A stretch of 40,742 bases of DNA from Oscillospiraceae bacterium (GTDB taxonomy: Bacteria > Bacillota > Clostridia > Oscillospirales > Oscillospiraceae). The DNA lies in assembly GCA_017938625.1 (NCBI GenBank), contig JAGBBD010000057.1, forward strand, positions 1-40,742, written 5' to 3'. This document shows positions 2,242 through 18,503 of this stretch, piece by piece; positions within the stretch are counted from its first letter, which is position 1, and the number at the start of each line of letters is the position of its first letter. The notes under the pieces were generated by a model, which did not search any database, was not told the DNA's origin, and saw nothing but the letters and a program-made list of their open reading frames with translations. The position numbers and the translations under genes are program-made.

Positions 2242-2270
2242 ATTGTAACCTATTTTAAATAAAAGTACAA
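2242..2270 (-). promoter_or_regulatory. SigA-type promoter for yloU-fakA
   Basis: Read on the minus strand, TTGTAC (-35, 2265-2270) and TACAAT (-10, 2242-2247) are separated by exactly 17 bp. The site lies about 40 bp upstream of the yloU start and beyond the terminator of the exonuclease gene. Confidence 0.8.
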
Positions 2271-2297
2271 GAGGGAAAATGAAAGATAAACGTAAAG

Positions 2298-2343
2298 AAA
2301 ACAATGAGCCGTCCGAACGCTTCGGATGGCTCATTGTTTTGTG
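2298..2343. terminator. Terminator at the end of the exonuclease gene
   Basis: A long hairpin has arms AAAACAATGAGCC.TCCGAA (2298-2317) and TTCGGA.GGCTCATTGTTTT (2321-2340) with a 3-nt loop and one mismatch. It includes the TGA stop of the exonuclease gene (2331-2333). The flanking A and T runs make it potentially bidirectional. Confidence 0.8.
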
Positions 2344-3284: not shown

Positions 3285-3315
3285 AAGACACAGCTCCTTC
3301 TACTATCCGCGCAAT

Positions 3316-3345
3316 ATCATATCACAACAGCCGTGCTGTTGTAAA
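3316..3345 (-). promoter_or_regulatory. Promoter of the exonuclease gene with internal palindrome
   Basis: On the minus strand, TTTACA (-35, 3340-3345) and TATGAT (-10, 3316-3321) are separated by 18 bp. The spacer is almost filled by a perfect palindrome, ACAACAGC CGT GCTGTTGT (3324-3342). It has no T-run, so it is better read as a possible operator than as a terminator. Confidence 0.55.
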
Positions 3346-3390
3346 CACAAACCTTTGTGCATAGATATATTGTGAAAGGCGGGGATGCAA

Positions 3391-4128: not shown

Positions 4129-4130
4129 GC

Positions 4131-6179
4131 TCAGTTAAAGATGTTGCTTTCGTCCCGGAACAGGTTGCCGATGCGCGCCTGCATGGCAGGGAAGGTGGGG
4201 TCATCTGCGTAGGCAGGATCGGACAGGGCCTGTTCTGCCGCCTCCTTTGCCTGAGACAACAGCGCCATGTCAAGGCTCAAATTGGCTGCTTTGAATTGGG
4301 GCAGACCGTGCTGACGGCTGCCGAAGAAATCGCCGGGGCCGCGCAGAGCGAGATCCTCCTCTGCGATCTTGAAGCCATCATTTGTCTTGCACAGGGCTTT
4401 GAGACGCGCCTGTGTCTGTTCGTTTTTGTTGCCGGAGAAGAGCACACAGTAGCTCTTATCCTTACCGCGGCCTACACGTCCGCGCAGCTGGTGCAGCTGG
4501 CTCAGACCGAAGCGGTCGGCATTTTCAATGACGATCAAGGTGGCATTGGGCACATCCACGCCCACTTCAATGACCGTGGTCGCCACAAGGATATCCAGTT
4601 CGTGCTGTGAGAACTGTCCCATGATCCGTTCTTTTTCAGCCGGTTTCAGCTTGCCGTGGAGCAGACCTACACGCAGATCGGGGAACACGATCTGCTGCAA
4701 AGACTGCGCCCATACTTCGGCAGATTTCAGACTGTCCAGTTCGCTTTCTTCTACAGCGGGGCACACCACATAGATCTGATTGCCTGCTGCCGCGTGTTTG
4801 CGGATAAAAGCATTGATTCTCGGGCGCATGCTCTCGCCCACCAGAAAGGTGTCGATCACCTGTCTGCCCGGAGGAAGCTCATCGAGAACACTCACATCCA
4901 GATCGCCGTAGACCATCAAGGCAAGCGTTCTGGGGATGGGAGTCGCAGACATGACCAAAAGATGAGGCTTGCTGCCCTTCTGGGAAAGGGTGGCTCTCTG
5001 GGCAACACCAAAGCGGTGCTGCTCGTCAGCGATCACAAGATCCAACCGGGCAAACTGCACATCTTCCGTGAGCAGCGCGTGGGTGCCCACCACAAAGGGA
5101 AGGCTGCCGTCAGCCAGCTGCTCTTTGATGCGCCGCTTTTCTGCGGCGGTTGTGGAGCCTGTGAGCAGTCCGCAAGGAATTTGAAATGCTTCAAACAGCG
5201 AAGCAAGGGATTTATGGTGCTGCTCGGCAAGGATCTCCGTCGGTGCCATCAGAGCAGCCTGCCGTCCGTTTTGAACGCACAGATAGGCAGCTGCCGCAGC
5301 CACCATGGTCTTGCCGCTGCCTACATCACCCTGCAGCAGTCTGTTCATGGGTGTGCCTTTCAGAAAGTCCTCTGCGATCTGACCGATGGCACGCTGCTGC
5401 GCACCGGTCAGAGTAAAGGGAAGTGCGTCGTAGAAGGGTGCCAGTTCGCATCGTTTATAAGGCTCGGTGCAGACCTTGGTGCGCCGATTGCGCATCAGCT
5501 GCAATCCGGCGGAGAACAGGAAGAACTCTTCAAAGATCAGTCTTTTCCGTGCCCGATCTAAAGCAGTAAAGTCCTTCGGCTCGTGGATATTGGCATAGGC
5601 ATCTTGTGCAGAGCACAGATCATAACGCTCCCGGACGCCTTGCGGCAGAAGCTCCGGCATATGCGCCAGACAGGCATCCAGCGCCTGACGGATGCACTTG
5701 CTCAGAAGGGCGTTGGTGATACCTGCCGTCAGGCTGTAGACCGGCATGATCCGTCTGGTGCGGATGCCGGGCCGGTCGGGAGATTCAAAAGCGGGATTTT
5801 GCATCTGGAAATGGGCATAATCTCCGGTGAGCATACCGTAGAAAATGTAAGTTTCGCCATACTTGAGCTGATCTGCTGCATAAGGCTGATTGAAATAAAC
5901 AAGATCCAGCTTTGCTGTATTGTCGGCAACGGTCAGCTTGGTGATGCTCAAGCCTTTCCGAATGTGGGCAGTTTTGGGTGCACGGATGACCATGGCTTCA
6001 AAGCAGGCAGGTACATCTACCTCCAGATCGCGCAGAGCCACCATTTTTGTTCTGTCTTCATAGGTTCTCGGGAAATAGGCGATCAGATCGTAAATGCTGC
6101 GGATATCCAGCTTTTCCAGCTGCTTGGCTCTGGCAGGGCCGATGCCCTGCAGGGCAGTGACAGGGGAGTAAAGATCCAT
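4131..6179 (-). CDS. recG: ATP-dependent DNA helicase RecG
   Basis: At 682 residues this is full length for RecG, the helicase that remodels stalled replication forks and recombination junctions. In order it shows an N-terminal wedge/OB-fold region (GIGPARAKQLEKL, then the SITKLTVADNTAKLDL beta domain), Walker A GDVGSGKT, the DEQH box (IADEQHRFG), SATPIPRTLAL, and C-terminal helicase motifs ending in QLRGRVGRG. The start at 6179 (MDLYSPVTALQGIGP) is chosen because AAGGAGGTG precedes it; an in-frame ATG at 6263 lies inside the upstream hairpin and has no good site. It is monocistronic or read through from the XRE regulator gene. Confidence 0.95.
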   Translation of the reverse strand: MDLYSPVTALQGIGPARAKQLEKLDIRSIYDLIAYFPRTYEDRTKMVALRDLEVDVPACFEAMVIRAPKTAHIRKGLSITKLTVADNTAKLDLVYFNQPYAADQLKYGETYIFYGMLTGDYAHFQMQNPAFESPDRPGIRTRRIMPVYSLTAGITNALLSKCIRQALDACLAHMPELLPQGVRERYDLCSAQDAYANIHEPKDFTALDRARKRLIFEEFFLFSAGLQLMRNRRTKVCTEPYKRCELAPFYDALPFTLTGAQQRAIGQIAEDFLKGTPMNRLLQGDVGSGKTMVAAAAAYLCVQNGRQAALMAPTEILAEQHHKSLASLFEAFQIPCGLLTGSTTAAEKRRIKEQLADGSLPFVVGTHALLTEDVQFARLDLVIADEQHRFGVAQRATLSQKGSKPHLLVMSATPIPRTLALMVYGDLDVSVLDELPPGRQVIDTFLVGESMRPRINAFIRKHAAAGNQIYVVCPAVEESELDSLKSAEVWAQSLQQIVFPDLRVGLLHGKLKPAEKERIMGQFSQHELDILVATTVIEVGVDVPNATLIVIENADRFGLSQLHQLRGRVGRGKDKSYCVLFSGNKNEQTQARLKALCKTNDGFKIAEEDLALRGPGDFFGSRQHGLPQFKAANLSLDMALLSQAKEAAEQALSDPAYADDPTFPAMQARIGNLFRDESNIFN

Positions 6180-6235
6180 GGTCACACCTCCTTTTTGGTT
6201 ATTATACCGTGTTTTCCTCATAAGAGCAAGCAAAT

Positions 6236-6260
6236 ACCGCCTGCCGAAACGGCAGGCGGT
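6236..6260 (-). terminator. GC-rich hairpin between the XRE regulator and recG
   Basis: An 11-bp perfect stem (ACCGCCTGCCG / CGGCAGGCGGT) with loop AAA touches the TGA stop of the regulator gene. The T-tract after it on the minus strand is poor (ATTTGCTTG), so it may be a weak terminator or attenuator ahead of recG. Confidence 0.5.
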
Positions 6261-6631
6261 CATGTCTGTTGTTTTTCCTGTTCTGCGATTTGTTTGATTT
6301 TTTGCAGATAAAGCTGCTCAGCCATGGATTGACGGGCCCTTTCGTCCAAAGAAAGCAGCGTCTGCAAAAAATCTCTTGCGGATAGACTCCTTGTGACAAA
6401 CAGGGAATCCAGTTCACCTTTTTCGTGATATTTACACCGACCAAGAAGATAATCTGCAGATACATTGTAATACTCTGCCAGGGTGGCAAAATGCCGCAAT
6501 GGGAGCTCATACTCTCCTTTTTCGTACAGGGAATAGTGTTGTTGAGATATCCCGAGAATCCCGGCGATATCCTTTTGTGAAAAGTCATGATCGGTGCGAA
6601 GATCGCGCAGGATCTCTATTGTGCTCTTCAT
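6260..6631 (-). CDS. XRE-family transcriptional regulator
   Basis: A 123-residue DNA-binding protein with an N-terminal Cro/C1-type helix-turn-helix (residues of about 8-62: DFSQKDIAGILGISQQHYSLYEKGEYELP, then LAEYYNVSADYLLG). The C-terminal half is helical, rich in Gln and Lys, and may mediate dimerisation. AAAGGAG lies 9 nt before the ATG at 6631. It is divergent from the strong promoter of the kinase/phosphatase island, so control of that island and of itself is a reasonable inference. No ligand can be guessed. Confidence 0.85.
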   Translation of the reverse strand: MKSTIEILRDLRTDHDFSQKDIAGILGISQQHYSLYEKGEYELPLRHFATLAEYYNVSADYLLGRCKYHEKGELDSLFVTRSLSARDFLQTLLSLDERARQSMAEQLYLQKIKQIAEQEKQQT

Positions 6632-6681
6632 AATAACGCTCCTTTCTTAAAGAGAGAGTAGCATACATAGAAAACTGTGTA

Positions 6682-6710
6682 TTGAAATAACATTTGTATT
6701 TATGTATAAT
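6682..6710 (+). promoter_or_regulatory. Strong SigA-type promoter for the SLH/kinase island
   Basis: TTGAAA (-35, 6682-6687) and TATAAT (-10, 6705-6710) have a 17-bp spacer. The start of transcription would be near 6717, giving a leader of about 148 nt before the gene at 6865. ACATATA-type repeats just downstream (6711-6717 and around 6741-6750) may be binding sites for the divergent XRE regulator. The leader also holds an 8-bp inverted repeat, GCCAAATT (6784-6791) / AATTTGGC (6809-6816), without a T-run. Confidence 0.75.
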
Positions 6711-6864
6711 ACATATAAATATATGTGAAAAAGAAAGAGACACACATATATGAAGAGTGAAGGTATCACGGAAGAATAAAAATGCCAAATTATGTGACGA
6801 AAACAACAAATTTGGCTCAAAATTTCTGCTTTGTGTTACCTTAACGAAAAAAGGAGGAGTCAAT

Positions 6865-8304
6865 ATGAAAAAACTTTTGAAGAAAGCATTGTCGGTACTG
6901 ATCGTAGTATTGTGTCTGATGCCTGTAGTGGCTATGGCATCCGGCGTGCAATTGAGTCCGGGTTTCTTTTTTGACAACACATGGCTCGAACGGGAAGAGA
7001 TGGAAGACCAAACCGATGATAATGTAGTGTTTGAAGAGGAGATCGAGGAAGAGGTTGAGGAAGTGGTCAGACCGATAACGGGCTCTGCGTATCTGATGAT
7101 CAACGATTCAACCGGTCATGTGACCATCGAACAGGGCGAGACTGCCAGCCTGTATATGGACTGCAGCAATCTGCTCAGTTCCATACGCGCACAAGACCGA
7201 TATGTCAATCACTGCGTTGCCAATATCAGAACGACTTCCCGCGGTGGCGGCGAGGTCGTGGTGAGTGCCAACGAGAGAGCATTGCTTGACGGCGGTGTGT
7301 TAACAGGCTCTGTTACCGCTGTTTCCGGTGGTCAGGTGGTTTTGTCTATTACCGTAACAGCAGGCTACAGCACAAACCCCAATGCAAACAGCTATTCTCC
7401 CGATCAAGTATACGGGACCGCCAGCGCTTCCATTCAGATCACCGTGCCCGGTGGCATTGTTGAGGCCCCGGAAGTCGTGATCGTGCCGGAAAAGGAAGGT
7501 TACTTTAAAAATCCTCTTGCCGGAATCGATCCCTATGCAGTGCCCAATCCGTTCTCCGATATTACGCCGGATCACTGGGCATACGAAGCTGTTATGCGCT
7601 GCTATGCCGCAGGCTTGTTGAATGGTGTAGATATCAGCCCGGCGCAGGATGGCTCTCAGGTCATTTATATGAACAAGACCTATAAGCAGGGCGGCGAAGA
7701 GAAGGTGTCCATGACCGTTGTGACTGCAGACGAGTGGATAAAGAAAATGCGGCTCAAGCTGACCGGGAGCGATGAAGGTGCACAGCTGATGAAGTTGGGC
7801 GCTATGGGTGCGACTTTGACCAATCTGAATACAACACAGTGTAGTATCGGAATAGGCAATGGGTATGCGAGAGGTAATATGGTACATGAACTGTACAATA
7901 AATACGATTCTTGTGTCACCCCGGCTTTGCCCAGCTACAATTGCTTGTTTAAGGATGTGCCCCCCAAACTGAAACAATCGGTGGGATGGGCAGCAAAAGA
8001 AGGCGTTGTAAAGGGCTTTAGTGCCGATCGATTTGAGCCTACCTGGAGCATCACCCGAGAGCAGTTCTGCACAATTATTCTCCGCTATGCCAATGAGTTT
8101 GGTATTCCGCTTCGTGCAAATAGTGCTCCCCAGTTTGTTGATAACGATCAGATTTCCGATTATGCAAAAGAGGCGGTTGCAGCTTGCCAGCAGAATGGTC
8201 TGGTTCAAGGCGTAGGTGGAGGAAGATTTGATCCTAAGGGAATAATGACTTTTGATGCGTGTCAAGAGATTATTAATAATTTCTGCAACGTCTACGGCTA
8301 CTAA
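6865..8304 (+). CDS. Secreted S-layer homology (SLH) domain protein
   Basis: A 479-residue exported protein. A clear signal peptide (KKLLKKALS, then a hydrophobic core, AMA before Ser26) is followed by a Glu-rich stretch (about 50-66), a beta-rich region of unknown fold (about 70-205), and SLH modules at about 229 (FSDITPDHWAYEAV), 361 (FKDVPPKLKQSVGWAAKEGVVKGF) and 423 (FVDNDQISDYAKEAV). SLH modules anchor proteins to secondary cell-wall polymers. The first module has an atypical, longer second half with no clear GRFDP-type motif. The start at 6865 has AAAGGAGGAG upstream; in-frame codons upstream lack a ribosome-binding site. It is the first gene after the island promoter and lies 38 bp from the kinase gene. 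Confidence 0.82.
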   Translation: MKKLLKKALSVLIVVLCLMPVVAMASGVQLSPGFFFDNTWLEREEMEDQTDDNVVFEEEIEEEVEEVVRPITGSAYLMINDSTGHVTIEQGETASLYMDCSNLLSSIRAQDRYVNHCVANIRTTSRGGGEVVVSANERALLDGGVLTGSVTAVSGGQVVLSITVTAGYSTNPNANSYSPDQVYGTASASIQITVPGGIVEAPEVVIVPEKEGYFKNPLAGIDPYAVPNPFSDITPDHWAYEAVMRCYAAGLLNGVDISPAQDGSQVIYMNKTYKQGGEEKVSMTVVTADEWIKKMRLKLTGSDEGAQLMKLGAMGATLTNLNTTQCSIGIGNGYARGNMVHELYNKYDSCVTPALPSYNCLFKDVPPKLKQSVGWAAKEGVVKGFSADRFEPTWSITREQFCTIILRYANEFGIPLRANSAPQFVDNDQISDYAKEAVAACQQNGLVQGVGGGRFDPKGIMTFDACQEIINNFCNVYGY

Positions 8305-8342
8305 AACTTAGAGCACAGGCTCTTTGAACGGGGGGAAATACT

Positions 8343-10259
8343 ATGGCAATGATCGATCCTAATCGGCTTTGTCCCAATTGTCTGCAGGAAATGCCGACCA
8401 AAGGCGGGCGGTGTCCTGTTTGCGGCTATACGGAGCAGACACAGGAGGTTAGCCCCAGATGTATGCCGCCCTATACCATTCTTGCCGGAAGATATTTTGT
8501 CGGTACTGTGCTGGGTGAAGGTGGATTTGGCATTACATACAAGGGCTGGGATCTGCAAAACAATACCAAAGTCGCCATCAAAGAATATTTCCCGGCAGGG
8601 CTTGTGACAAGAGATACTTCTCATGGTGGTGCCAATACGGTACAGTCTATCTCCGGACAGATGCGCACCCACTATCAGGCAGGGCTTCAGAAATATGAAA
8701 ATGAAGCCCGATGCCTGATGGATCTGAAGGGCACAGCAGGCATTGTCAATATCCTTGATTTTTTCCATGAAAATGCCACAGCATACATCATTATGGAATT
8801 TATCGAGGGTATGACCCTGCGCGATTATCTGTCGTTGAACGGGGGCAGCCTTTCTGAGCAGAAAGTGCTGGAGATGTTCCGACCTTTGATGTACTCTCTG
8901 GATGCTGTGCACCGTGCCGGTATCGTACATCGAGATATCAGCCCGGATAATATTCTCGTCCAGCCGGATGGGGGGTTAAAGCTGATCGACTTCGGTGCGG
9001 CGCGTCAGTCCACCGGAAGCGCGACCCAAAGCATGACTGTGATCCTGAAGCATGGTTATGCTCCGGAGGAACAATACCGCAGCCGCAGCAAGCAAGGTCC
9101 GTTTACCGATGTATATGCCATCAGTGCGACCTTGTACAAGGTCCTTACGGGAATAACACCGGTGGATTCCATGTCCCGTCTGTTCGAAGATGAACTGACG
9201 CCTTTGGAGCAATTGCCGCACCGTATTTCACCAAAGACTTGCGGCGCAGTGAAAAAAGGCATGGGGATTCGGGCGGAGGACCGTTTCCGGACCATGAGCG
9301 AATTGGCGGCGGCGTTGTATGACAAAGAAGTTACTGTGGAGCCGACTCTGGCAATGCCCGTGGTCAAAAGAAAACACTCGGGACGAATGCTGATGCTCAT
9401 TGGGGCAGCAGCGCTGCTGTGTGTGCTGATTGTAGGCAGCATCTCTCTTCTGGTTGGACCCGGTCAGAACGATTCGGAACTGCTGGCAAGTGCGGCACAA
9501 CTGAATGTGCCGGAATTGAGCGGAAAAACGGAAGAAGATGCCAGGGCATTACTGACCTCTCTCGGTGTTGCAGTGGAGGTAGAATATGCTGCGGCAGATG
9601 GTGCTCATGCAGGCAGAGTTTTGTCGTGGAGCATGACCTCTCCGGAGAGTGTCAGACTTGTTGTGGGCGAACTGACGTCATTCATCTTTGAAGAAAACGA
9701 GGATGGTCTGACGATCACCGGTTACAGCGGAGAGGACGTTGTCCTGCAGTTTCCTCAGACGATCAACGGCATACAGGTCACAGAGATCGGCGAATATGCC
9801 ATGATGGAAGACGGCATGGAGATGAACGGTATTGAGCAGATATCTCTGCCGGACGGACTTCTGCGTATAGGAGAAGGCGCGTTTTCCGGCTGCTCATATC
9901 TGAAATCCCTGAAGCTGCCGGATACGGTGCAGCAAATCGGTATGGGTGCATTCTGGGGATGCAGTGCTGTCGATACGGTGAATATGCCAAAGGATCTGAA
10001 GCGGGTGGAAAAGAGCGCCTTCCAATATTGCTATAATCTGCCGGAGATTATTCTGCCTGAAGGCTGTGAAAGTATCGGAGAAGAAGCTTTCTGCGGCTGC
10101 ACGGCTGTGAAGCGGGTCGTGATCCCTGATTCTGTTACGGATATTGGTTCCGGTGCCTTTGGCGGCTGTCCCTTTGCAGAGCTGCAGGTTGTTGCCGGAT
10201 CTGCAGGAGAAGAGCATGCAAAACAGGGAAATATCCCGTGGAAGCTACAGACGGAGTGA
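8343..10259 (+). CDS. Membrane Ser/Thr protein kinase with zinc ribbon, PASTA-like and BspA-type leucine-rich repeats
   Basis: At 638 residues, this Hanks-type kinase has in order: an N-terminal zinc ribbon (CPNC...CPVCGY, about 10-30), a kinase domain (GEGGFG loop at 58-63, Lys80 in VAIKEY, HRD at 196-198, DFG from Asp216, GYAPEEQY), one transmembrane helix (about 350-372), a single PASTA-like unit (VPELSGKTEEDARALLTSLGV) and about five LRR_5/BspA-type repeats (about 480-630; e.g. EGAFSGCSYLKSLKLPDTV). The catalytic residues are complete, so it should be active, with its outer part sensing cell-wall material or a surface ligand. The start has GGGGGAA 5 nt upstream. The LytTR gene follows after 8 bp. 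Confidence 0.9.
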   Translation: MAMIDPNRLCPNCLQEMPTKGGRCPVCGYTEQTQEVSPRCMPPYTILAGRYFVGTVLGEGGFGITYKGWDLQNNTKVAIKEYFPAGLVTRDTSHGGANTVQSISGQMRTHYQAGLQKYENEARCLMDLKGTAGIVNILDFFHENATAYIIMEFIEGMTLRDYLSLNGGSLSEQKVLEMFRPLMYSLDAVHRAGIVHRDISPDNILVQPDGGLKLIDFGAARQSTGSATQSMTVILKHGYAPEEQYRSRSKQGPFTDVYAISATLYKVLTGITPVDSMSRLFEDELTPLEQLPHRISPKTCGAVKKGMGIRAEDRFRTMSELAAALYDKEVTVEPTLAMPVVKRKHSGRMLMLIGAAALLCVLIVGSISLLVGPGQNDSELLASAAQLNVPELSGKTEEDARALLTSLGVAVEVEYAAADGAHAGRVLSWSMTSPESVRLVVGELTSFIFEENEDGLTITGYSGEDVVLQFPQTINGIQVTEIGEYAMMEDGMEMNGIEQISLPDGLLRIGEGAFSGCSYLKSLKLPDTVQQIGMGAFWGCSAVDTVNMPKDLKRVEKSAFQYCYNLPEIILPEGCESIGEEAFCGCTAVKRVVIPDSVTDIGSGAFGGCPFAELQVVAGSAGEEHAKQGNIPWKLQTE

Positions 10260-10267
10260 ACTGAGTT

Positions 10268-10975
10268 ATGCTGAATATTGGAATATGTGACAGTAATGCT
10301 GCGCAGAGAAGCCAATTGCATAAAGTCCTGGTGACACTGTTGTTTGATACTATGGATATCCGTATCTTTCATTACGAATCCGGAACGGTACTGTTGGATG
10401 CTTTGCGTTCAGAGCAGTTCTGTGTCGATCTGCTTTTTCTTGAGATTGCACTGCCGGATATGAATGGTTTGAAAGTTGCGGGGCAGCTGCGAGCTTCTGA
10501 AAAAAAGCTTGATATCATTTTTTTGACGGAGCTGGAGAGATATGTTTACGATGGCTATGTTTATCATGCCTATGATTATCTGATCAAACCCGTATCGGCA
10601 AAAAGAATCGGTCTGAGTATGCGACGTTATATTGCAGAACGCTTCGGAAACAAAGATGCATTTTTGCTGATCAAAGCAAGAGGAAATACGGAACGGATAG
10701 ATCTTAGCCGAGTGCATTATTTCGAAAGCAGACAAAGAAAAGTGGCTGCGATCATGGATGACAGGGTTGTGGAATTCTATAAGAAAATGGGAGATCTGTT
10801 TTCTGTTGTGGAGAAATCCGGTTTTTTGCGGTGTCACCAGAGCTACACCGTTAATGCTTCTTTGATCGTATCACTTCATAACCATGAGATCATACTGCAG
10901 GATGGGACACCGTTGCCTGTGAGCAAACGATATTTGCCGGATGTACGAAACCATTTGGTGCGTACATCTGTTTAG
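10268..10975 (+). CDS. LytTR-family response regulator with atypical receiver
   Basis: A 235-residue AgrA/LytR-type protein. A CheY-like receiver spans about 1-120 and a LytTR DNA-binding domain about 130-235 (FLRCHQSYTVNASLI, LPVSKRY). In the receiver, the phosphoacceptor position reads Glu59 (LLFLEIALPDMNG) instead of Asp, and the acidic pair near Asp8 is reduced to Asp-Ser, while Thr87 and Lys107 (LIKP) remain. Phosphorylation at the usual site is therefore unlikely; Glu may mimic the active state. No histidine kinase is nearby, whereas Ser/Thr kinases and PP2C phosphatases are. Its stop overlaps the ribosome-binding site of the next gene. Confidence 0.88.
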   Translation: MLNIGICDSNAAQRSQLHKVLVTLLFDTMDIRIFHYESGTVLLDALRSEQFCVDLLFLEIALPDMNGLKVAGQLRASEKKLDIIFLTELERYVYDGYVYHAYDYLIKPVSAKRIGLSMRRYIAERFGNKDAFLLIKARGNTERIDLSRVHYFESRQRKVAAIMDDRVVEFYKKMGDLFSVVEKSGFLRCHQSYTVNASLIVSLHNHEIILQDGTPLPVSKRYLPDVRNHLVRTSV

Positions 10976-10986
10976 GAGGAATGGGA

Positions 10987-11712
10987 ATGATTTCCTTTTA
11001 TGCCGTGACCAATGCCGGTGGGAGAAAATACAACGAAGATTGCGTGGAGGTCCTTGTGGAGGACACCCGCTGGTGCTGTATACTGGCAGATGGTCTTGGC
11101 GGCATGGGTGGTGGTGCAGATGCAGCGCAGATCGTGACGCAAACACTGAAGGAATGCTTTGACTCAGGTTTTATGACGTCGCAGACTTTACAGGAGTGTT
11201 GTCAGCGCGCCCATCAGGCAGTACAGCAAAAAAAGAAAACATTGGGGAAACATGGCAGCTTGTTTTCGACAGTTGTGTTGGTTTACGGAACGGAAAAGAA
11301 AATGCATTGGATCTACTGTGGAGACAGTCGTTTTTATCTGTTTTGCAATGACGCTATTTGCCATCGGACGAAAGATCATAGCGTTCCTCAGATGTTGGCA
11401 TCCTGCGGAGAAATACGCGAAGAGGAAATACGTTGCCATCCGGATAGAAACCGCCTCTTAGCTTGCCTTGGGACAGAGGATGAGCAGGCAAAATTATCTG
11501 CTGTGGGAGAAATGGATATCCAGAGCGGTTTGGTTGGTTTGCTTTGTTCCGATGGCTTTTGGGAGCCAGTTTCGGAAGTGCAGATGCTGCAGGAGCATTG
11601 CAGAGCGAAAAGTGTACAGCAGTGGATCCGTGCACTGGTAAAATTGGTGCGAAAACAGCCTAAGGATGAACACATGGACAATTTTTCTGCAATCGGAATC
11701 TGGGTGCATTGA
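10987..11712 (+). CDS. PP2C-family Ser/Thr protein phosphatase (first)
   Basis: A 241-residue cytoplasmic PPM/PP2C phosphatase that would reverse phosphorylation made by the neighbouring kinases. The metal-binding motifs are all present: NAGGRKYNED, ADGLGGMGGG, YCGDSRFYL, LLCSDGFWE and the late DNFSAIG. The start at 10987 (MISFYAV) is preferred over an ATG at 10981, because TAGGAGGA (10973-10980) directly abuts 10981 but lies 6 nt from 10987. It is tightly coupled to the LytTR gene, whose TAG stop is part of the same element. Confidence 0.92.
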   Translation: MISFYAVTNAGGRKYNEDCVEVLVEDTRWCCILADGLGGMGGGADAAQIVTQTLKECFDSGFMTSQTLQECCQRAHQAVQQKKKTLGKHGSLFSTVVLVYGTEKKMHWIYCGDSRFYLFCNDAICHRTKDHSVPQMLASCGEIREEEIRCHPDRNRLLACLGTEDEQAKLSAVGEMDIQSGLVGLLCSDGFWEPVSEVQMLQEHCRAKSVQQWIRALVKLVRKQPKDEHMDNFSAIGIWVH

Positions 11713-11734
11713 AAAAACAAATGGAGGATCAAGT

Positions 11735-12601
11735 ATGCTTCACCTGAAAAACATACTGCTCAAGAAAAGAAAACAGAAGAAAAAGGTGCAGGCATCACCG
11801 ACATTGGAAGGGAATATCCGAACGGAGATCATGAGCACACCGCAAGTCAATATGCCGCCGCATCTGACTATGTCTGCGGCAACGGACATTGGCACCAGGA
11901 CCTACCAACAGGACTACTATGCTGTCAGCACCACCAGAATGGGTGAATTTGCTGCAATTGTGTGCGATGGTATGGGCGGACTGGAGGGGAGCGAACAGGC
12001 GTCAAAGGCAGCGGCAACCGTGTGGATCGCCATGTACGAAGCCGGGTTTCAGGATTTTGGAGAGTTTGCAGATCGCACTTTTTCTGCCATGGATAGGCTG
12101 GTCCGCAAGATGGATGAGGCAGGCGGAACGACCGCCGCTGCGATTTGGATCGATGGAGATGCTCTGCACTGGATGTCTATCGGTGACAGCAAAATTTATA
12201 TTCTGCGCAATGGCAAATTAGAGCAGCTGACAAGAGAACACAATTATCAGCTGTTTCTTGATGGAAAGCTGGAAAGAGGTGAGATATCACTTCGGCAGCA
12301 CGAAAAAGAAATGGACAAGGGAGCGTCTCTTGTCAGCTATATTGGGCGTGGCCAAATGCCGTTTACCGATGTCAGTGAACGGCCGATATGTCTGATTCCC
12401 GGAGATATCGTTCTGGTGTGCAGTGATGGTCTGTATAAGTCTATCCCGGAAGAAAAACTGGAAAAAATGGTTCTGTCTTATAGCGGAGATTTTGACACCC
12501 TTGCGTCGTATCTTGTGGATTATGCAGCGGCGACTGTGGGTATTCGGGATAATACAACAGTGGTTGCTGTACGCTGCAATGAGCCTTGCTGTATCTCTTG
12601 A
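11735..12601 (+). CDS. PP2C-family Ser/Thr protein phosphatase (second)
   Basis: A 288-residue PPM/PP2C phosphatase with a very basic N-terminal stretch (KNILLKKRKQKKKVQ, about 4-20) and a linker before the catalytic domain (about 45-288). Visible motifs are TYQQDYYAV, CDGMGGLEGSEQAS, GGTTAAAIWI, SIGDSKIYIL, VCSDGLYKS and RDNTTVV, so the metal sites are intact. The basic tail could bind membrane or nucleic acid; this is inference. ATGGAGG lies 7 nt before the ATG at 11735. It is only distantly similar to the first phosphatase, so the two probably have different targets rather than arising from a fresh duplication. Confidence 0.92.
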   Translation: MLHLKNILLKKRKQKKKVQASPTLEGNIRTEIMSTPQVNMPPHLTMSAATDIGTRTYQQDYYAVSTTRMGEFAAIVCDGMGGLEGSEQASKAAATVWIAMYEAGFQDFGEFADRTFSAMDRLVRKMDEAGGTTAAAIWIDGDALHWMSIGDSKIYILRNGKLEQLTREHNYQLFLDGKLERGEISLRQHEKEMDKGASLVSYIGRGQMPFTDVSERPICLIPGDIVLVCSDGLYKSIPEEKLEKMVLSYSGDFDTLASYLVDYAAATVGIRDNTTVVAVRCNEPCCIS

Positions 12602-12660
12602 TATGTTAAAAACGGCAGAATACGGAAGAAAAACGGCAATTTATGTTCAATACTCCGAAA

Positions 12661-12671
12661 AATGCTATAAT
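12661..12671 (+). promoter_or_regulatory. Internal extended -10 promoter ahead of the FHA gene
   Basis: TGC directly before TATAAT (12666-12671) makes a TGnTATAAT extended -10 element in the 107-bp gap between the second phosphatase and the zinc-ribbon/FHA gene. The -35 region is weak (TGTTCA, 16 bp upstream). The downstream half of the island could thus be expressed separately. Confidence 0.5.
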
Positions 12672-12708
12672 CAAACTATAGAAAAATAAAGAACTTGGAG
12701 GAAACAAT

Positions 12709-13350
12709 ATGAACTTACTTAGATGTGCAAACGGACACTATTTTGATGCGGATAAGTATGCAGAGTGTCCGCACTGCTCGCAGATGATGCGGCACGACTT
12801 GACGCAGACTGAGGCTATTGAGATCGAGCAGCCGGGCAAAGACAGCGTGACAACGACGCCTCCCCCCGAGTTCCCGCCTCAGCCGCCGGTGTCACCCGTC
12901 GATCCCGGAGATGATTTTGGCCCCGGTAAGTTTGACTCCGATGCGGATGTTACAGTAGGCTACTACTCGAACCTAATCGGCAATGAGCCTGTTGTTGGTT
13001 TTCTGGTGTGCACAAAGGGTGAGTATTTCGGTGACAGCTTTTCCTTGAAGAGCGGCAGAAACTTTATTGGACGCGCCAGAAATATGGATGTTATTCTGGA
13101 TCTGGATCCTGCTGTGTCTCGAGAGCGCCATGCGATCGTTGTCTATGAGCCCAGAGCAAGAGTGTTTATTGCCCAGGCGGGCGATTCTCATGGCATGTTC
13201 TATGTCAACGACAAGGTTGTTCTGACCAACGAGCCTTTGAAGGCATATGACAAGCTTTCCATTGGCAACACAGAACTGATGTTTATCCCTTGCTGTGGTC
13301 CCGAGTTTAGCTGGGATGATGTGAAACGTGATTCCGGCATGATCTGCTGA
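12709..13350 (+). CDS. Zinc-ribbon and FHA domain protein
   Basis: At 213 residues, this protein has an N-terminal zinc-ribbon-like motif (LRCANGHYFD...CPHC, about 5-23), a Thr/Pro-rich linker (about 30-75, including TQTEAI, TTTPPP and DVTVGYYS) and an FHA domain (about 95-195) that should bind phosphothreonine peptides: GRNFIGRARNMD, VSRERHAI, YVNDK. The Thr-rich segments are plausible substrates of the local kinases, which would allow the FHA domain to switch partner; this is inferred by analogy with GarA/OdhI-type proteins. GGAGGAAACAAT precedes the start. It is followed 20 bp later by the membrane FHA gene. Confidence 0.88.
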   Translation: MNLLRCANGHYFDADKYAECPHCSQMMRHDLTQTEAIEIEQPGKDSVTTTPPPEFPPQPPVSPVDPGDDFGPGKFDSDADVTVGYYSNLIGNEPVVGFLVCTKGEYFGDSFSLKSGRNFIGRARNMDVILDLDPAVSRERHAIVVYEPRARVFIAQAGDSHGMFYVNDKVVLTNEPLKAYDKLSIGNTELMFIPCCGPEFSWDDVKRDSGMIC

Positions 13351-13370
13351 TCGAGAAAGGAGAGAGTGAT

Positions 13371-14249
13371 ATGAAATTTACGATCAAACATGGGCTGCTT
13401 ATCTTTATTGCTCTGGCAGTGGCTGCACTTCTGCTGCCATGGGGCATCTTTGGTAATGTTACCGGTCTTGCTGCAGGTGTTTTTGGAAGTGTGGGCAGTA
13501 TCCCTACGATCTCCGTCAACGGTGCGTATATCGGTGCTTCCTGTTCGGCGGCATTGGTGGAGTTCTTTGAGTATGTTGAGATTGTGTCACTGACAGGTGC
13601 GGCGCTGAATTTCTGGTGGTGGCTGCTTATTTATGTGGTCATCTGCGTGATCCTGGCAGGCTTCCTGCTCCCTGTGATCAGTCTGTTCCTCTGCCTGTTC
13701 ACCCGCAGCAAAAGAGCGACCATCGCGATTTTGTCCATGCAGTCGATCAGTGCGCTCATTGCGATCGTAGAGCTGATCCTTCTTGTTTGGGCAGAAAACT
13801 ACGTTAGTTTGACATCGGCGTTCCAGATGGGGGCAGGTCCTGTGGTGTATCTGGTGGCACTGCTTGCATCCGTTATTGTTGCTGCGATGATCGTCAAAAG
13901 ATACGTTGAAAAAGAACCCAAGGTCGTGCCGACCGGCATCGGCAGCGGTCTGATTTGTCTTGCAGGTGAGTATCGCGGCATCACGATTCCTATGATCAGC
14001 GGGGCGAAAGTGACTTTGGGCAGAGACGCTACTTTCTGTAATTTGGTGCTCTCCGGCAGCAAGATCAGCCGCAAGCACTGTGAGATTGAGTATCTTGGCG
14101 TTGGAGGCAAATACCGCGTGACGGATTATTCCACAAATGGTGTGTTTGTGAAGGGCGGATCCAAGCTTGATAGAGGTACGGCGGTAGAACTGTCTTCCGG
14201 GACGGTCATTTGTCTGGGTAACGATCTGAATATGTTCCAACTGCAGTAA
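13371..14249 (+). CDS. Polytopic membrane protein with cytoplasmic FHA domain
   Basis: A 292-residue protein. About four hydrophobic helices (residues near 7-30, 78-105, 118-140 and 148-172) are followed by a C-terminal FHA domain (about 195-292) with VTLGRDATFC, the SRKH core (GSKISRKHCEIEYLG) and DYSTNGVFVKG, all needed for phosphothreonine binding. It would place a phosphopeptide reader at the membrane, where it could recruit a phosphorylated protein from the same cluster. The membrane part is not one I recognise. AGAAAGGAGAGAG precedes the ATG. Confidence 0.88.
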   Translation: MKFTIKHGLLIFIALAVAALLLPWGIFGNVTGLAAGVFGSVGSIPTISVNGAYIGASCSAALVEFFEYVEIVSLTGAALNFWWWLLIYVVICVILAGFLLPVISLFLCLFTRSKRATIAILSMQSISALIAIVELILLVWAENYVSLTSAFQMGAGPVVYLVALLASVIVAAMIVKRYVEKEPKVVPTGIGSGLICLAGEYRGITIPMISGAKVTLGRDATFCNLVLSGSKISRKHCEIEYLGVGGKYRVTDYSTNGVFVKGGSKLDRGTAVELSSGTVICLGNDLNMFQLQ

Positions 14250-14255
14250 ATAAAT

Positions 14256-14286
14256 AAGAGACCGGTTTGCGTAAAACCGGTCTCTT
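14256..14286 (+). terminator. Hairpin between the membrane FHA gene and the second kinase
   Basis: A perfect 13-bp stem (AAGAGACCGGTTT / AAACCGGTCTCTT) with loop GCGTA is followed by TGTAAAT rather than a T-run. It may be a partial terminator, an attenuator or an mRNA-stabilising hairpin that lowers or separates expression of the last kinase gene. Confidence 0.5.
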
Positions 14287-14304
14287 GTAAATCGGGAGGT
14301 TGTT

Positions 14305-15642
14305 ATGGCTGAATTGAAACGCGTGTGCCCCAAGTGTTTTATGCCGCTGTATGGAAGGGTGTGCTCTTGCGGATTTGTTGGTGCACCCGGCAGTGACTAC
14401 GCCATGGCGCTTCCCAACTATGTTCAGCTGAATGAACGATATATTTTGCTCCAGGTCATTGGCGCAGGAGGCTTTGGTGTGACCTACAAGGCACTGGACA
14501 AGGTGAAACGAAGGATTTGTGCAGTTAAGGAGTATATGCCGGTTGGCGTGGCGCTTCGACGATACGATGGCTGGATTTATCCGGATGTGTCAGAAAAAGC
14601 CGAGATATTTGCCCATGGGAAAAACAGGTTTATGGAAGAGGCATTCTTCCTGCAGAAGCTCAATGCCATGCCTGCCACAGCGACCATAACAGATTGTTTT
14701 GAAGAAAATGGAACGGCATATTTTGTCATGGAATACGTTGAGGGTGCGACGATCAAACAGCAGGTCATGCGTCGTGGCCCGTTCTCTCTGCCGGATGCTC
14801 TGAATATTGTTATGTCGGTGGCATTGGCTCTTCATAAAATTCATACGCAGGCAGGGATGTTTCATCGGGACATCAGTCCGGAGAATATTATGCTTCAGGC
14901 AAATGGAAATGTAAAAATTCTGGATTTTGGAAGCGCCAAACTGCTGTCAAAGCAGGCGCATCAGAATTTTACTGTGGTGGTAAAGTCGGGATATGCACCC
15001 CCTGAGCAGTATTCATCTACTACACCGCAGGGGGCGTATACCGATGTGTATGCTTTAGCAAGCACGTTTTACTATATGGTCACAGGAGAAAAAATACCGC
15101 CGGCATTGGATCGCATAAACGGAAAAGAATTTGTGCCGTTAAGCCGGGCAATACAGTGTCCGGGCAGTATATCGGATACTGTGGATCGTGCATTGCGCCT
15201 GAACAGACAAGAACGTACTGCAAATTGCGGACAATTTGCCAAAGAATTGTATTTCTCTGTGGGTCAATCGCCTTCCTCTGTTGTACAGGCAAAACAGCCG
15301 GATGTCCAGAAAAAACAAAGCAAAGATGCTTCGGAAGTATATTTGCAGATCAATCTGAAAGGGAAATGGAGAAAGGAAACGCTTCAACCCAACAAAATGT
15401 ATTGTGTGGGAAGGAATCGACGTTGTGATGTTGTAATTTCGGGAGATATGATGTTGAGCAATCAGCATTTATATCTATACTATGATTCGGGAAAGAAGTA
15501 TTTCGCAATTAAAGACATTTCCAGAAATGGTGTCACCTGCAATGGGCAGAGATTGGTACGGGAGAAGTTTTATTACTTCAGACCGGGAACAGAGATCAAA
15601 CTGGCAGGTGTGTGTGAAATGACTCTGATTGCACGGTCATAA
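14305..15642 (+). CDS. Ser/Thr protein kinase with N-terminal zinc ribbon and C-terminal FHA domain
   Basis: A 445-residue soluble Hanks-type kinase. A zinc-ribbon-like start (CPKCFMPLYGRVCSCGF, about 8-24) is followed by the kinase domain: GAGGFG loop at 53-58, Lys75 in AVKEY, HRD at 187-189, DFG from Asp207, and GYAPPEQY in the activation segment. After a charged linker (about 325-345) comes an FHA domain (about 350-445) with YCVGRNRRCD, LSNQH and DISRNGV. Carrying both writer and reader domains, it may dock on proteins it or the first kinase has phosphorylated. No transmembrane segment is seen. It closes the island; a strong terminator follows. Confidence 0.92.
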   Translation: MAELKRVCPKCFMPLYGRVCSCGFVGAPGSDYAMALPNYVQLNERYILLQVIGAGGFGVTYKALDKVKRRICAVKEYMPVGVALRRYDGWIYPDVSEKAEIFAHGKNRFMEEAFFLQKLNAMPATATITDCFEENGTAYFVMEYVEGATIKQQVMRRGPFSLPDALNIVMSVALALHKIHTQAGMFHRDISPENIMLQANGNVKILDFGSAKLLSKQAHQNFTVVVKSGYAPPEQYSSTTPQGAYTDVYALASTFYYMVTGEKIPPALDRINGKEFVPLSRAIQCPGSISDTVDRALRLNRQERTANCGQFAKELYFSVGQSPSSVVQAKQPDVQKKQSKDASEVYLQINLKGKWRKETLQPNKMYCVGRNRRCDVVISGDMMLSNQHLYLYYDSGKKYFAIKDISRNGVTCNGQRLVREKFYYFRPGTEIKLAGVCEMTLIARS

Positions 15643-15670
15643 CAAAAGGAGCTGAAAACAGCTCCTTTTG
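15643..15670. terminator. Bidirectional terminator between the kinase and citrate synthase genes
   Basis: A perfect 12-bp stem (CAAAAGGAGCTG / CAGCTCCTTTTG) with loop AAAA lies directly after the kinase TAA, 5 bp from the convergent citrate synthase stop. The A/T ends of the stem let it work from both sides. Confidence 0.85.
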
Positions 15671-15674
15671 CTTA

Positions 15675-17030
15675 TTATCTCTGATCGATGGGGGTGTAGG
15701 GCACACGCAGGACTGCGGCGCGGTATGCCGGGCGATGGATACGGTTGCAGGTGAGCACCTCTTCCATGCGGTTGGCGCACCAGCCGGAGACTCTGGCGAT
15801 GGCAAACAGCGGTGTGAACAGTTCCGGAGGGATCTTGAGGAAATCGTAGATCAGACCGGAATACATATCCACGTTGGCGCAGATGGGGATGTCCAGATTT
15901 TTCAGCTTGGTGATCAGAGGCTTGCCGCACTTTTCAATGCGCATCATCAGCTCCAACTCATCCATATGACCGGACTTTTCTGCAACCTCTCTGGAATACT
16001 TCTTCAGAAGTTCACATCTGGGATCAGACTCGGTGTAGATGGCATGGCCCAGACCGTAGATCTTGCCGCTGCCGTCATTTGCCTGACCGCGGAGGATCTT
16101 GGTCAGATAGTGGGAGATCTCGTCTTCGTCCTTGTGATCCTTCACATGCTCCTGCACATTGCGGAACATCTCCATGACCTTGGCATTGGCGCCGCCGTGG
16201 AGCGGGCCTTTCAAAGAGCCTACCGCACCTGCGATGGCGCTGTAACTGTCGGTATTGGAGGAGGACATGGCGCGGCAGACGAAAGTGGAGTTGTTGCCGC
16301 CGCCGTGCTCTGCGTGGATCATCAGCATCAGATCCAGCAGATGTGCCTCTTCGGCAGTAAACTTTTTGTCTTTTCTCAGCATCCGCAGGAAATCCTCCGC
16401 CACATTGAGCTGCCGCTTGGGATTGTGGATGTAGAGACTCTTATTATCAAAATAGTGCCGCTTTGCCGCATGGGCATGGGCGACGATGGTGGGGAAGCGT
16501 GCCACCAACTCAATGGACTGACGCATGATGTTCTCCGCAGACAGATCGTCGGGACGGTCGTCGTAGGAGTACAGCGCAAGCACGCTTCTGGAAAGCTGAT
16601 TCATAATGTCACGGCTGGGGGAGCGGAGAATCATGCTCTCCATAAATCCGTCGGGCAGCTGCCGTGCTTCTGCCAGCATGGTCTCAAATTCAGACAGCTG
16701 CTGCTTGGTAGGCAGAATACCGGTCAGCAGCAGGAAGACCACTTCTGTAAAACCAAACGTACCGTTTGCGCGGTGGGATTCTACGATATCTTCCAGACTG
16801 ATGCCGCGGTAATACAGCTTGCCGGGCATGGGGACACGGGCACCGTCCTGCATATAGTAGCCCTGAACGCTGCCGATGTTGGTCACACCGATGAGTACAC
16901 CGGTGCCGTCTGCATTTCGTAAGCCACGATGCACATTGGGATCGTGCTGATCCTTGGGCAGCATGGCATACTGATTTGCCATCAGATCCTTGAGTCTGAG
17001 CATATATTCCTGCGTGTAAGATGAGATCAT
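15675..17030 (-). CDS. gltA: Citrate synthase
   Basis: This 451-residue protein condenses acetyl-CoA and oxaloacetate to citrate, the entry to the oxidative branch that leads to glutamate in many anaerobes. Family motifs are clear: KLYYRGISLEDIV, the histidine segment MIHAEHGGGNNSTF, GPLHGGANAKVMEM, YGLGHAIYTESDPR and the C-terminal VDMYSGLIYDFL. The start at 17030 is chosen because CGGGAGGTATCCTC precedes that ATG; an upstream in-frame ATG at 17075 lies in the promoter. It has its own promoter and no other TCA gene beside it. It belongs to the larger bacterial/mitochondrial-like class with an N-terminal extension. Confidence 0.94.
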   Translation of the reverse strand: MISSYTQEYMLRLKDLMANQYAMLPKDQHDPNVHRGLRNADGTGVLIGVTNIGSVQGYYMQDGARVPMPGKLYYRGISLEDIVESHRANGTFGFTEVVFLLLTGILPTKQQLSEFETMLAEARQLPDGFMESMILRSPSRDIMNQLSRSVLALYSYDDRPDDLSAENIMRQSIELVARFPTIVAHAHAAKRHYFDNKSLYIHNPKRQLNVAEDFLRMLRKDKKFTAEEAHLLDLMLMIHAEHGGGNNSTFVCRAMSSSNTDSYSAIAGAVGSLKGPLHGGANAKVMEMFRNVQEHVKDHKDEDEISHYLTKILRGQANDGSGKIYGLGHAIYTESDPRCELLKKYSREVAEKSGHMDELELMMRIEKCGKPLITKLKNLDIPICANVDMYSGLIYDFLKIPPELFTPLFAIARVSGWCANRMEEVLTCNRIHRPAYRAAVLRVPYTPIDQR

Positions 17031-17059
17031 GAGGATACCTCCCGGGAGAGATTGTGTAT

Positions 17060-17088
17060 ATCTTACAGGATACACGAGTAAAATGCAA
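17060..17088 (-). promoter_or_regulatory. Promoter of citrate synthase
   Basis: On the minus strand, TTGCAT (-35, 17083-17088) and TAAGAT (-10, 17060-17065) have a 17-bp spacer, giving a short leader before the ATG at 17030. Confidence 0.7.
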
Positions 17089-17111
17089 GAGAAAAATGAA
17101 ATAAATTCAAA

Positions 17112-17184
17112 TTTTGCAAGTTTTTGCGCATTTTATAAAAAAATATCTAAAATTATGAAAGAATTGAATGATGAACTTGCAAAA
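17112..17184. repeat. Separated 11-bp inverted repeat in the divergent intergenic region
   Basis: TTTTGCAAGTT (17112-17122) and AACTTGCAAAA (17174-17184) are exact reverse complements 51 bp apart, between citrate synthase and the first AraM-type gene. They could be paired operators for a regulator acting on both directions; no regulator can be named. Confidence 0.45.
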
Positions 17185-17255
17185 ACAGAACGCTTGCGGG
17201 AAAACGACACTTGTGATATCTTATTGTAAGAAAGAAAATGAAAGGATCTTGTAAT

Positions 17256-18503
17256 ATGATCGATTTTAAGGAACTGATCACGTCGTACCAGAATTGCCCC
17301 TGTGGTATGGAACATCGCTGTGACATTAAGGATATCCGCATTGGCAGCGGGCTTGTGACACAGGTCGGTCAGATCCTGCGTGAAAATGACTTCCCTCAAA
17401 AACTGCTGCTGGTGGCAGACCGCAATACCATCAAGGCTGCGGAGGGGATCATGGAAAGTCTGCAGGGCTTTGAGGTGGAGCAGTATATCTATGAAAAGCT
17501 GCGTGTGGCGACCATGGACGATGTGCGTCTGGTGGAAGGGTACTTTGACCGTGTGGACGCAGTCCTTGCTGTGGGCACAGGCTCGATCCATGACCCGTGT
17601 CGGATGGCATGTGCCAACGGCAAAAAGCCGCTTGCTCTCTTTGCTACAGCACCCAGCATGGACGGCTTTGCCTCTTATAATGCGCCCATTGTGGACGGCA
17701 ACTTCAAAATCACCTATGAGGCAAAGTGCCCCGAAGTCATCATTGCCGATACCAAGATTCTGGCAGCGGCACCTACGGAACTGAAGTCTGCCGGCTTTGG
17801 CGATATGATAAGCAAATATATTGCACTGATCGACTGGCAGGTATCACATCTCATTACCGGGGAACACTATTGCAGCCGCGTGGCAGCTCTGACCAGAACT
17901 GCCACAGATCGCCTGATGGAAATGGCAGATAAAGTAACGCTGTGCGATGAAGAAGCGGCAGGCGCTGTCTTTGAGTCCCTCCTTATGACAGGCATCGCCA
18001 TGGCATTTACCAGAACATCCCGTCCGGGCAGCGGTACGGAACACATTATGGCGCACTACTGGGAGTGTCTGGAGCTGCTGGAAGGGAAGATTCCCAATTA
18101 CCACGGTGAGGATGTGGGCGTGACGACCCTCATCATGCTGAAGTATTATAATGAGCTGATTCAAAAGGAGTCTGTCCGCACGCACAAAGAGCATACAGAC
18201 TGGGATGAAGTTTACGCGGTCTATGGCGCCCTTGCCGGCGATGTGAGAAAACTCAACACCCCCGATACCATCACCGATCCCATTGATCCGGAGCAGCTGG
18301 CGCAGGCATGGGATGAGATCGTGAGGATCGTCCGCTCTGTGCCTTCTTACGAAGAATGCCTTGCCGCCATGAAAAAAGCAGGCTGCAAGACTACCATTGA
18401 AGAGGTGGGCAAGAGCCGTGCATTTGTGGCAGAGAGCTTCCTGTATCATCCCTACATGAGAAGAAGATTGTCTTTGCGCAGAGTGGCGAATATGATCGAC
18501 TAA
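17256..18503 (+). CDS. AraM-type sn-glycerol-1-phosphate dehydrogenase (paralogue 1)
   Basis: A 415-residue member of the AraM/EgsA branch of iron-type dehydrogenases, which reduce dihydroxyacetone phosphate to sn-glycerol 1-phosphate with NAD(P)H. Visible are the cofactor motif VGTGSIHD, TAPSMDGFAS, and a metal set consistent with Asp183 (GFGDMISK), His263 (GSGTEHIMAHYWE) and His283 (NYHGEDVG). The N-terminus carries a conserved Cys/His cluster, CPCGMEHRC, shared with the copy at 22148. AAGGATCTTGTAAT precedes the chosen ATG at 17256; a start at 17238 is possible. The exact substrate in this organism is not shown by the sequence. Confidence 0.85.
   Translation: MIDFKELITSYQNCPCGMEHRCDIKDIRIGSGLVTQVGQILRENDFPQKLLLVADRNTIKAAEGIMESLQGFEVEQYIYEKLRVATMDDVRLVEGYFDRVDAVLAVGTGSIHDPCRMACANGKKPLALFATAPSMDGFASYNAPIVDGNFKITYEAKCPEVIIADTKILAAAPTELKSAGFGDMISKYIALIDWQVSHLITGEHYCSRVAALTRTATDRLMEMADKVTLCDEEAAGAVFESLLMTGIAMAFTRTSRPGSGTEHIMAHYWECLELLEGKIPNYHGEDVGVTTLIMLKYYNELIQKESVRTHKEHTDWDEVYAVYGALAGDVRKLNTPDTITDPIDPEQLAQAWDEIVRIVRSVPSYEECLAAMKKAGCKTTIEEVGKSRAFVAESFLYHPYMRRRLSLRRVANMID

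Follow-up and report, generated by a model that had tools for sequence, protein, structure and literature searches.

In type VI secretion, the kinase PpkA acts with PppA and Fha in a threonine-phosphorylation pathway that belongs to the machine. A set of genes with kinases, phosphatases and phosphothreonine readers is described here in a stretch of 40,742 nucleotides from an Oscillospiraceae bacterium (assembly GCA_017938625.1, contig JAGBBD010000057.1, positions 1 to 40,742), called the window throughout, which is contig C49 of a 2.25-Mb draft genome (G000) that is 71% complete. Kinase, PPM phosphatase and FHA proteins are also carried by the type VII secretion subtypes T7SSc-T7SSj, with no more than one kinase and one phosphatase in each, and the excerpt of that account names no zinc-ribbon FHA protein (PMC11217815). 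The eight genes of the window probably form a free-standing phosphothreonine signalling island whose regulator has passed out of His-Asp control. The genes and the insert in which they lie are as follows.

6261-15676, no strand: insert (genomic island), about 9.4 kb, ends exact to about 10 bases
6260-6631, - strand: XRE-type (HTH_3) regulator (Pfam HTH_3, 9e-12), divergent from the island promoter, inside the insert except for its last bases
6865-8304, + strand: exported SLH protein with a signal peptide (by eye), an N-terminal region and three SLH stretches (SLH, 2.4e-21)
8343-10259, + strand: kinase 1, with a zinc ribbon, a Hanks-type kinase domain, one transmembrane segment (near residue 345), a PASTA-like stretch and BspA-type LRR_5 outside (Pfam)
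10268-10975, + strand: LytTR regulator with a degenerate receiver (LytTR, 2.7e-18; Response_reg, 3e-13)
10981-11712, + strand: phosphatase PP2Ca (Pfam PP2C); the start may be 10987
11735-12601, + strand: phosphatase PP2Cb (Pfam PP2C); start placed by its Shine-Dalgarno sequence
12709-13350, + strand: zinc-ribbon FHA protein, ZnR-FHA (Pfam FHA and relatives), marker gene of the cassette family
13371-14249, + strand: membrane FHA protein with about five transmembrane segments (hydropathy) and a C-terminal FHA domain (3.5e-15)
14305-15642, + strand: kinase 2, with a zinc ribbon, a Hanks-type kinase domain (Pkinase, 4.5e-35), a C-terminal FHA domain (1.9e-11) and no transmembrane segment

The preliminary description, made from the letters and open reading frames, had proposed eight same-strand genes with two kinases, two PP2C enzymes and FHA domains in three proteins. 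Pfam confirms these families (Pkinase 3e-33 and 4.5e-35), and the genes are all open on the + strand, filling 6865-15642 with gaps of 5 to 107 bases between them; the compact set of writers, erasers and readers with a surface and a transcription component is likewise supported. The XRE gene is a ninth gene, almost entirely within the same insert. The start of the SLH gene is most likely the ATG at 6865, which has AAAGGAGG upstream, rather than the GTG at 6757, and that of PP2Cb is most likely 11735, preceded by GGAGGA, rather than 11666. Both kinases retain the catalytic Lys and the HRD and DFG motifs on direct reading, the core residues GR and SRxxH are retained in the ZnR-FHA protein and four aligned relatives, and an alignment finds the invariant Asp and Gly residues of PP2C in both phosphatases. 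Because these motifs are kept, the enzymes of the island look active.

The boundaries of the insert come from a same-genus genome, G004. In a blastn comparison, bases 3-2262 of its stretch L158 match window 4003-6266 and bases 2263-4500 match 15677-17909; the two matches adjoin, so that nothing lies between them in the congener and window 6261-15676 is an insert. The matches of recG (83% identical) and citrate synthase (93%) are 24 bases apart in this genome and 122 bases apart in the congener G001. Five other congeners are uninformative, since recG and citrate synthase lie on separate contigs (G003, G005, G007) or, in G002 and G006, no citrate synthase match was obtained. The GC content of the insert is 0.481, against 0.542 and 0.535 in its flanks, and the insert begins just beyond a hairpin at 6236-6260 of which a similar copy is present in the congener. 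Gain of the island is the simpler reading, with loss in two congeners as the alternative. The Pfam scan of 18 window proteins showed no integrase.

The island belongs to a widespread modular cassette family. With a ZnR-FHA profile at E 1e-20 or better, matches were obtained in 36 of 300 genomes sampled from the family, in 28 of 295 from the order and in 8 of 299 from the phylum; the three samples overlap, and each includes G000. The neighbourhoods were fetched and genes called with our own caller, which gave 63 loci with a called ZnR-FHA gene; L062, L076 and L084, where none was called, stand outside the 63. In 40 of the 63 a same-strand trypsin-like gene stands no more than four genes away from ZnR-FHA, and FHA was detected on 34 of these trypsin-like genes. 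The recurring partners join FHA to trypsin, vWA, PrsW or DUF975 parts. The cassette of the window has no trypsin-FHA gene, its sole trypsin-like gene being HtrA-like and outside the insert. Seven loci (L079, L080, L108 and L119-L122) form a separate lineage with ZnR-FHA and two PP2Cs, and with a DnaJ-like gene nearby in six of them (by eye); this lineage reaches distant families of the phylum and includes two protein families without a Pfam match (L080:5232-6530 and 6552-7229). Nine loci were labelled secretion-linked, a label first assigned by architecture and partial gene content, EssC and T2SSE being searched for later. The trypsin label covers 41 loci and wrongly includes L042, where the trypsin-like gene is far off and the cassette has PrsW-FHA and vWA-FHA; the tree tests given below are independent of this label.

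The core of PP2Ca, PP2Cb and ZnR-FHA recurs in dozens of genomes in fixed orders, and is therefore above chance. The conserved gene order anticipated earlier holds for this core and not for the island as a whole, whose eight-gene set occurs in none of the other 62 loci. Of the SLH protein and the LytTR regulator, whose combination had seemed undescribed, neither kind of neighbour is unique to the window: three other cassettes have a LytTR gene in or beside them, and another one has a different SLH protein next to it. No description of the cassettes was found in the open-licence literature, and a scan of named genomes with the membrane FHA protein gave a single match, in Bradymonadales. Near some cassettes (L042:17115-19051, L038:2605-5109) there are recurrent neighbours, namely a short kinase that lacks the zinc ribbon, at least one membrane protein with a zinc ribbon and a divergent regulator-like gene; a kinase and a zinc-ribbon protein of the same kind are found at L077:14966-16938. 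One genome, G453, holds two cassettes of different lineages, one of the trypsin type on C110 (L093) and one of the LytTR type on C85 (L104).

The order PP2Ca-PP2Cb-ZnR-FHA is found in all nine secretion-linked loci and in the window, and in none of the 53 other loci. The nine continue directly into a kinase, with a short call before it in L071, and the window reads PP2Ca-PP2Cb-ZnR-FHA-FHA-kinase. By comparison, 38 of the 41 loci under the trypsin label have ZnR-FHA followed by PP2Cb, and the seven loci of the DnaJ lineage read ZnR-FHA-PP2Cb-PP2Ca. In the single-gene trees of ZnR-FHA and PP2Ca, the window and secretion-linked loci form small supported sets; in the PP2Cb tree its nearest rows are the same loci, inside a wider supported set of 23. 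When the three genes are joined over 65 loci, the window and the nine are grouped with support of 95/97, and with L066 and L104 added the support is 100/100. Placement of the window within the 43-row trypsin and PrsW group is rejected (p-AU 1.3e-5).

EssC exceeds its curated cut-off in seven of the nine genomes of the secretion-linked loci. It lies on the contig of the island within about 10 kb in G123, G305, G509 and G403 and on another contig in G191, G171 and G399; in the remaining two, G331 and G013, Tad genes are on the contig of the island. Among 14 genomes with cassettes outside the group, EssC was found in one (G015). The absence of secretion genes, remarked on in the preliminary description, is true of the window itself, whereas the nearest kin of its core occur in genomes that have type VII secretion, or next to Tad genes. 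The window, L066 and L104 branch outside the nine in the joined tree, and their genomes have no EssC over cut-off and no T2SSE match of CpaF grade. Since these three branch outside, the free-standing form of the module may equal the secretion-linked form in age.

The kinases have other affinities. Among solved chains the nearest to both is PpkA (5hnv; 5.5e-49 for kinase 1 and 2.5e-37 for kinase 2). A quick tree, built from 97 kinase domains, places kinase 1 nearest to kinases of trypsin and PrsW cassettes; it is 52% identical to a kinase of L098, a PrsW-FHA cassette, and kinase 2 sits on a long branch nearest to trypsin-cassette kinases. The fusion of kinase and FHA seen in kinase 2 is the only one detected among 101 kinase genes in 73 called loci. 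When seven congeners were searched with kinase 2, G003 and G006 gave kinases that belong to cassettes, G004 gave a zinc-ribbon kinase standing alone, and the others gave only weaker matches. G000 itself has a third zinc-ribbon kinase, on C55 (L044:6393-9782), beside an exported-looking protein of 550 amino acids (by eye), and a seed scan of 16 kb around it showed no PP2C or FHA gene. Because the core groups with secretion-linked loci and the kinases with other cassettes, the island is probably a mosaic, and the secretion kinship probably holds for the PP2C and FHA core only. As far as the sequences go, then, the module is one insert with a core that has a common ancestry with the modules of present-day type VII secretion or Tad pilus loci, while the closer kin of its kinases are in another cassette group.

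For the SLH protein, a role as ligand of kinase 1 or as effector is possible. Apart from the copy in the window, sequences related to its first 252 residues were found in just 7 of the 300 family genomes, all of them partial and weak (E 1.6e-5 or worse), for which reason this part was dropped as a family marker; a single-sequence structure prediction reached a mean pLDDT of 44.6 and was not used. The different SLH protein noted above adjoins the L094 cassette and has a solute-binding-like N-terminal part (by eye), and three further loci have SLH genes at a greater distance.

The LytTR regulator of the window does not have the full set of receiver residues, that is, the acidic pair, the phospho-acceptor Asp, the Thr or Ser and the Lys. 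In the alignment its acidic pair reads D-S and the phospho-acceptor Asp is replaced by Glu 59, followed by T and K. Aligned on the window, the receiver of L104 reads E-P, S, G, K and that of L112 reads A-K, D, C, S. All 20 control LytTR regulators, one of them from G000, are canonical (D/E-D, D, T, K). Degenerate receivers are thus found in three of three readable island-linked regulators against none of the 20 controls, for which the chance is 1 in 1771 if the label is random, the controls being hand-picked and not drawn at random. The gene of L107 was excluded from this count for its in-frame TAG. In this LytTR gene (L107:1860-2576, genome G334) the stop, which may mean a pseudogene, an assembly error or recoding, lies in the receiver, and the DNA before it reads A-K at the acidic pair (by eye). 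No histidine kinase was found among the eight island proteins or the ten neighbours scanned.

ComE of Streptococcus pneumoniae, a response regulator of the LytTR kind, and the kinase StkP set a precedent for the control of such regulators by a kinase, and are not evidence for the LytTR protein of the window. StkP phosphorylates ComE on Thr128, which raises its affinity for DNA, and an engineered D58E variant bound its promoter 17-fold better; the DNA-binding domain is compared with that of AgrA in the same excerpt (PMC6010298).

From these parts a closed circuit from the surface to transcription can be proposed. Kinase 1 would span the membrane and read the surface via its PASTA-like and LRR_5 part, perhaps with the SLH protein as partner or ligand. 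Judged by their families, kinase 1 and the soluble kinase 2 would phosphorylate threonines on island proteins, and the three FHA domains, one membrane-bound, one on a zinc-ribbon adaptor and one on kinase 2, would dock the phospho-sites and hold the complex together, with the two PP2Cs resetting the circuit. The LytTR protein would be the transcriptional output. It should bind DNA, and as it lacks the aspartate, a histidine kinase could not switch it in that way and another input is proposed: the protein may be fixed in a state that resembles the phosphorylated one, with the circuit as its gate, or its switch may be phosphorylation on threonine or the docking of an FHA domain. The XRE gene would gate the promoter between itself and the SLH gene. 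A wider proposal, which we put forward tentatively and hold to be possible rather than probable, is that the LytTR proteins of such islands lost the aspartate switch repeatedly, each lineage through its own residue changes, and are now under the control of kinases, PP2Cs and FHA domains. The result would be a pathway from surface to gene within one operon, and the nearest relatives of its core are elsewhere companions of type VII secretion or Tad pili.

The sites that might serve transcription of the island are the following.

6682-6710, + strand: promoter-like site TTGAAA-17-TATAAT, matching 11 of 12 consensus positions
14256-14286, no strand: 13-pair inverted repeat between the membrane FHA gene and kinase 2, without a T run on the + strand
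15643-15670, + strand: terminator-like hairpin with a 12-pair stem, closing the island

The candidate promoter and the closing hairpin bracket the eight-gene set. The single strong promoter supposed earlier keeps its place as the best of the sites, but the number of promoter-like sites in the region, 12, is not above that of shuffles (mean 12.9, sd 4.0). The 107-bp gap ahead of 12709 holds an extended -10-like sequence, TGCTATAAT, at 12663-12671 (by eye), a possible inner promoter, and the inverted repeat stands before kinase 2; as a terminator this repeat was rejected for want of a T run on the + strand.

Several results weigh against the reading proposed here. Both kinases are placed, on long branches, nearest to those of trypsin and PrsW cassettes. 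A position of the window just outside the nine loci together with L066 and L104 is not rejected (p-AU 0.169). LytTR genes lie in or beside only 4 of the 63 cassettes (the window, L104, L107 and L112), and L112, though counted as degenerate, retains an Asp in or close to the phospho-acceptor position. No counterpart of Thr128 of ComE could be named in the LytTR protein of the window, and the promoter region 6632-6864 holds AT-rich near-repeats and no convincing direct repeat of the LytTR type. The SLH protein is linked to kinase 1 by proximity alone.

Alternatively, the island could control a type VII secretion system or Tad pilus that is encoded in another part of the genome, with SLH and LytTR as passengers. 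The core does group with loci whose genomes have EssC in seven of nine cases, the remaining two having Tad genes on the contig of the island; linkage is unneeded, as EssC is on another contig than the cassette in G191, G171 and G399, and G000 is only 71% complete. Nevertheless, no EssC over cut-off was found in G000, where the sole match (on C29) scores 118 bits and the cut-off is 778, or in any of the seven congeners. The best match of G000 to a CpaF-type T2SSE is below cut-off (E 5.5e-4), and T2SSE matches in G001 (31.6 bits) and G002 (25.8 bits) just pass the Pfam cut-off, compared with about 200 bits for the CpaF type. WXG100 was not seen among the 18 window proteins scanned, no search aimed at it having been made in G000. 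The genomes of the two nearest free-standing relatives, G453 and G032, likewise show neither EssC over cut-off nor a T2SSE match of CpaF grade. We consider such a distant machine unlikely.

The free-standing signalling island has also to be set against two readings that leave secretion aside. A variable envelope-homeostasis kit of the PrkC/StkP kind, in which kinase 1 senses wall fragments by its PASTA-like stretch and phosphorylates wall-synthesis proteins, while the FHA proteins serve as adaptors and no part is devoted to a transcriptional output, would account for the PASTA-like stretch (7e-5), for the hit to the PknB_PASTA model and for the trypsin, vWA and LRR outer parts that recur in the relatives. 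The scores for that model, 171 and 141 bits for the two kinases, are however under the equivalog cut-off of 450; kinase 1 matches PknB at 1.7e-24 against 5.5e-49 for PpkA, and a LytTR gene stands inside the set. This kit is quite improbable. An anti-phage or other conflict system using phosphorylation is very improbable indeed. The PADLOC kinase models PD-T4-6 and mad6 and the PP2C model PDC-M21C match in the island, the distribution is patchy, the island is a single insert, and actinobacterial conflict systems have a zinc-ribbon kinase beside PP2C and vWA genes in the excerpt of PMC7159879. Yet 34 PADLOC families match each kinase, so that the models are broad; the GTPase and NTPase cores named in that excerpt are not among the Pfam hits of the island (PMC7159879), no nuclease or toxin-like hit occurs in the ten neighbours scanned, and the architecture is surface-anchored.

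Outside the insert, two Fe-ADH_2 genes flank a Mur-ligase-like gene just past the island (window 17238-18503, 20838-22103 and 22148-23401). The HtrA-like protein, with trypsin and PDZ domains and no FHA in Pfam, is encoded at 18595-19983, 3 kb past the island, and a wall hydrolase, Amidase_3 with SH3_3, lies ahead of recG at 3385-4125.

The island offers a compact test case for the wiring of Ser/Thr kinases to transcription in anaerobic Firmicutes. Parallel decay of receivers in island-linked LytTR proteins is a concrete indication that control has moved from aspartate to a different input. The mosaic also suggests that the phospho-control module known from secretion systems occurs independently of any secretion machine, which bears on its first role.

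Compared with known systems, the island has the writer, eraser and reader logic of the type VI pathway, and its kinases are closest to PpkA among solved chains; its PP2C profile matches PppA (6jkv) at 2.5e-43, but 5iti and 2j82 are better matches. It differs in that no type VI genes are seen in the window (the genome was not searched) and that its kinases carry zinc ribbons. In StkP and ComE, a Hanks-type kinase acts on a response regulator, and an engineered Glu mimic works there (excerpt of PMC6010298), whereas ComE retains its Asp and a histidine kinase, and the Glu of the window is native with no histidine kinase adjacent. The actinobacterial GAP1-N2 GTPase systems share a zinc-ribbon kinase with an adjacent PP2C; they are GTPase-centred, and no FHA protein or LytTR gene is named in the excerpt (PMC7159879). 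With T7SSc-T7SSj the window has in common that a membrane Ser/Thr kinase, a PPM phosphatase and a separate FHA protein are encoded together (excerpt of PMC11217815), and its PP2C/FHA core is kin to modules beside EssC in four genomes; the differences are two kinases, two PP2Cs, ZnR-FHA, the kinase-FHA fusion, SLH and LytTR, and a genome in which EssC was not found over cut-off. The trypsin-transmembrane-FHA cassettes of the same order, although they have the trypsin-FHA gene that the window does not and another gene order, share with it ZnR-FHA, two PP2Cs and zinc-ribbon kinases with variable outer parts.

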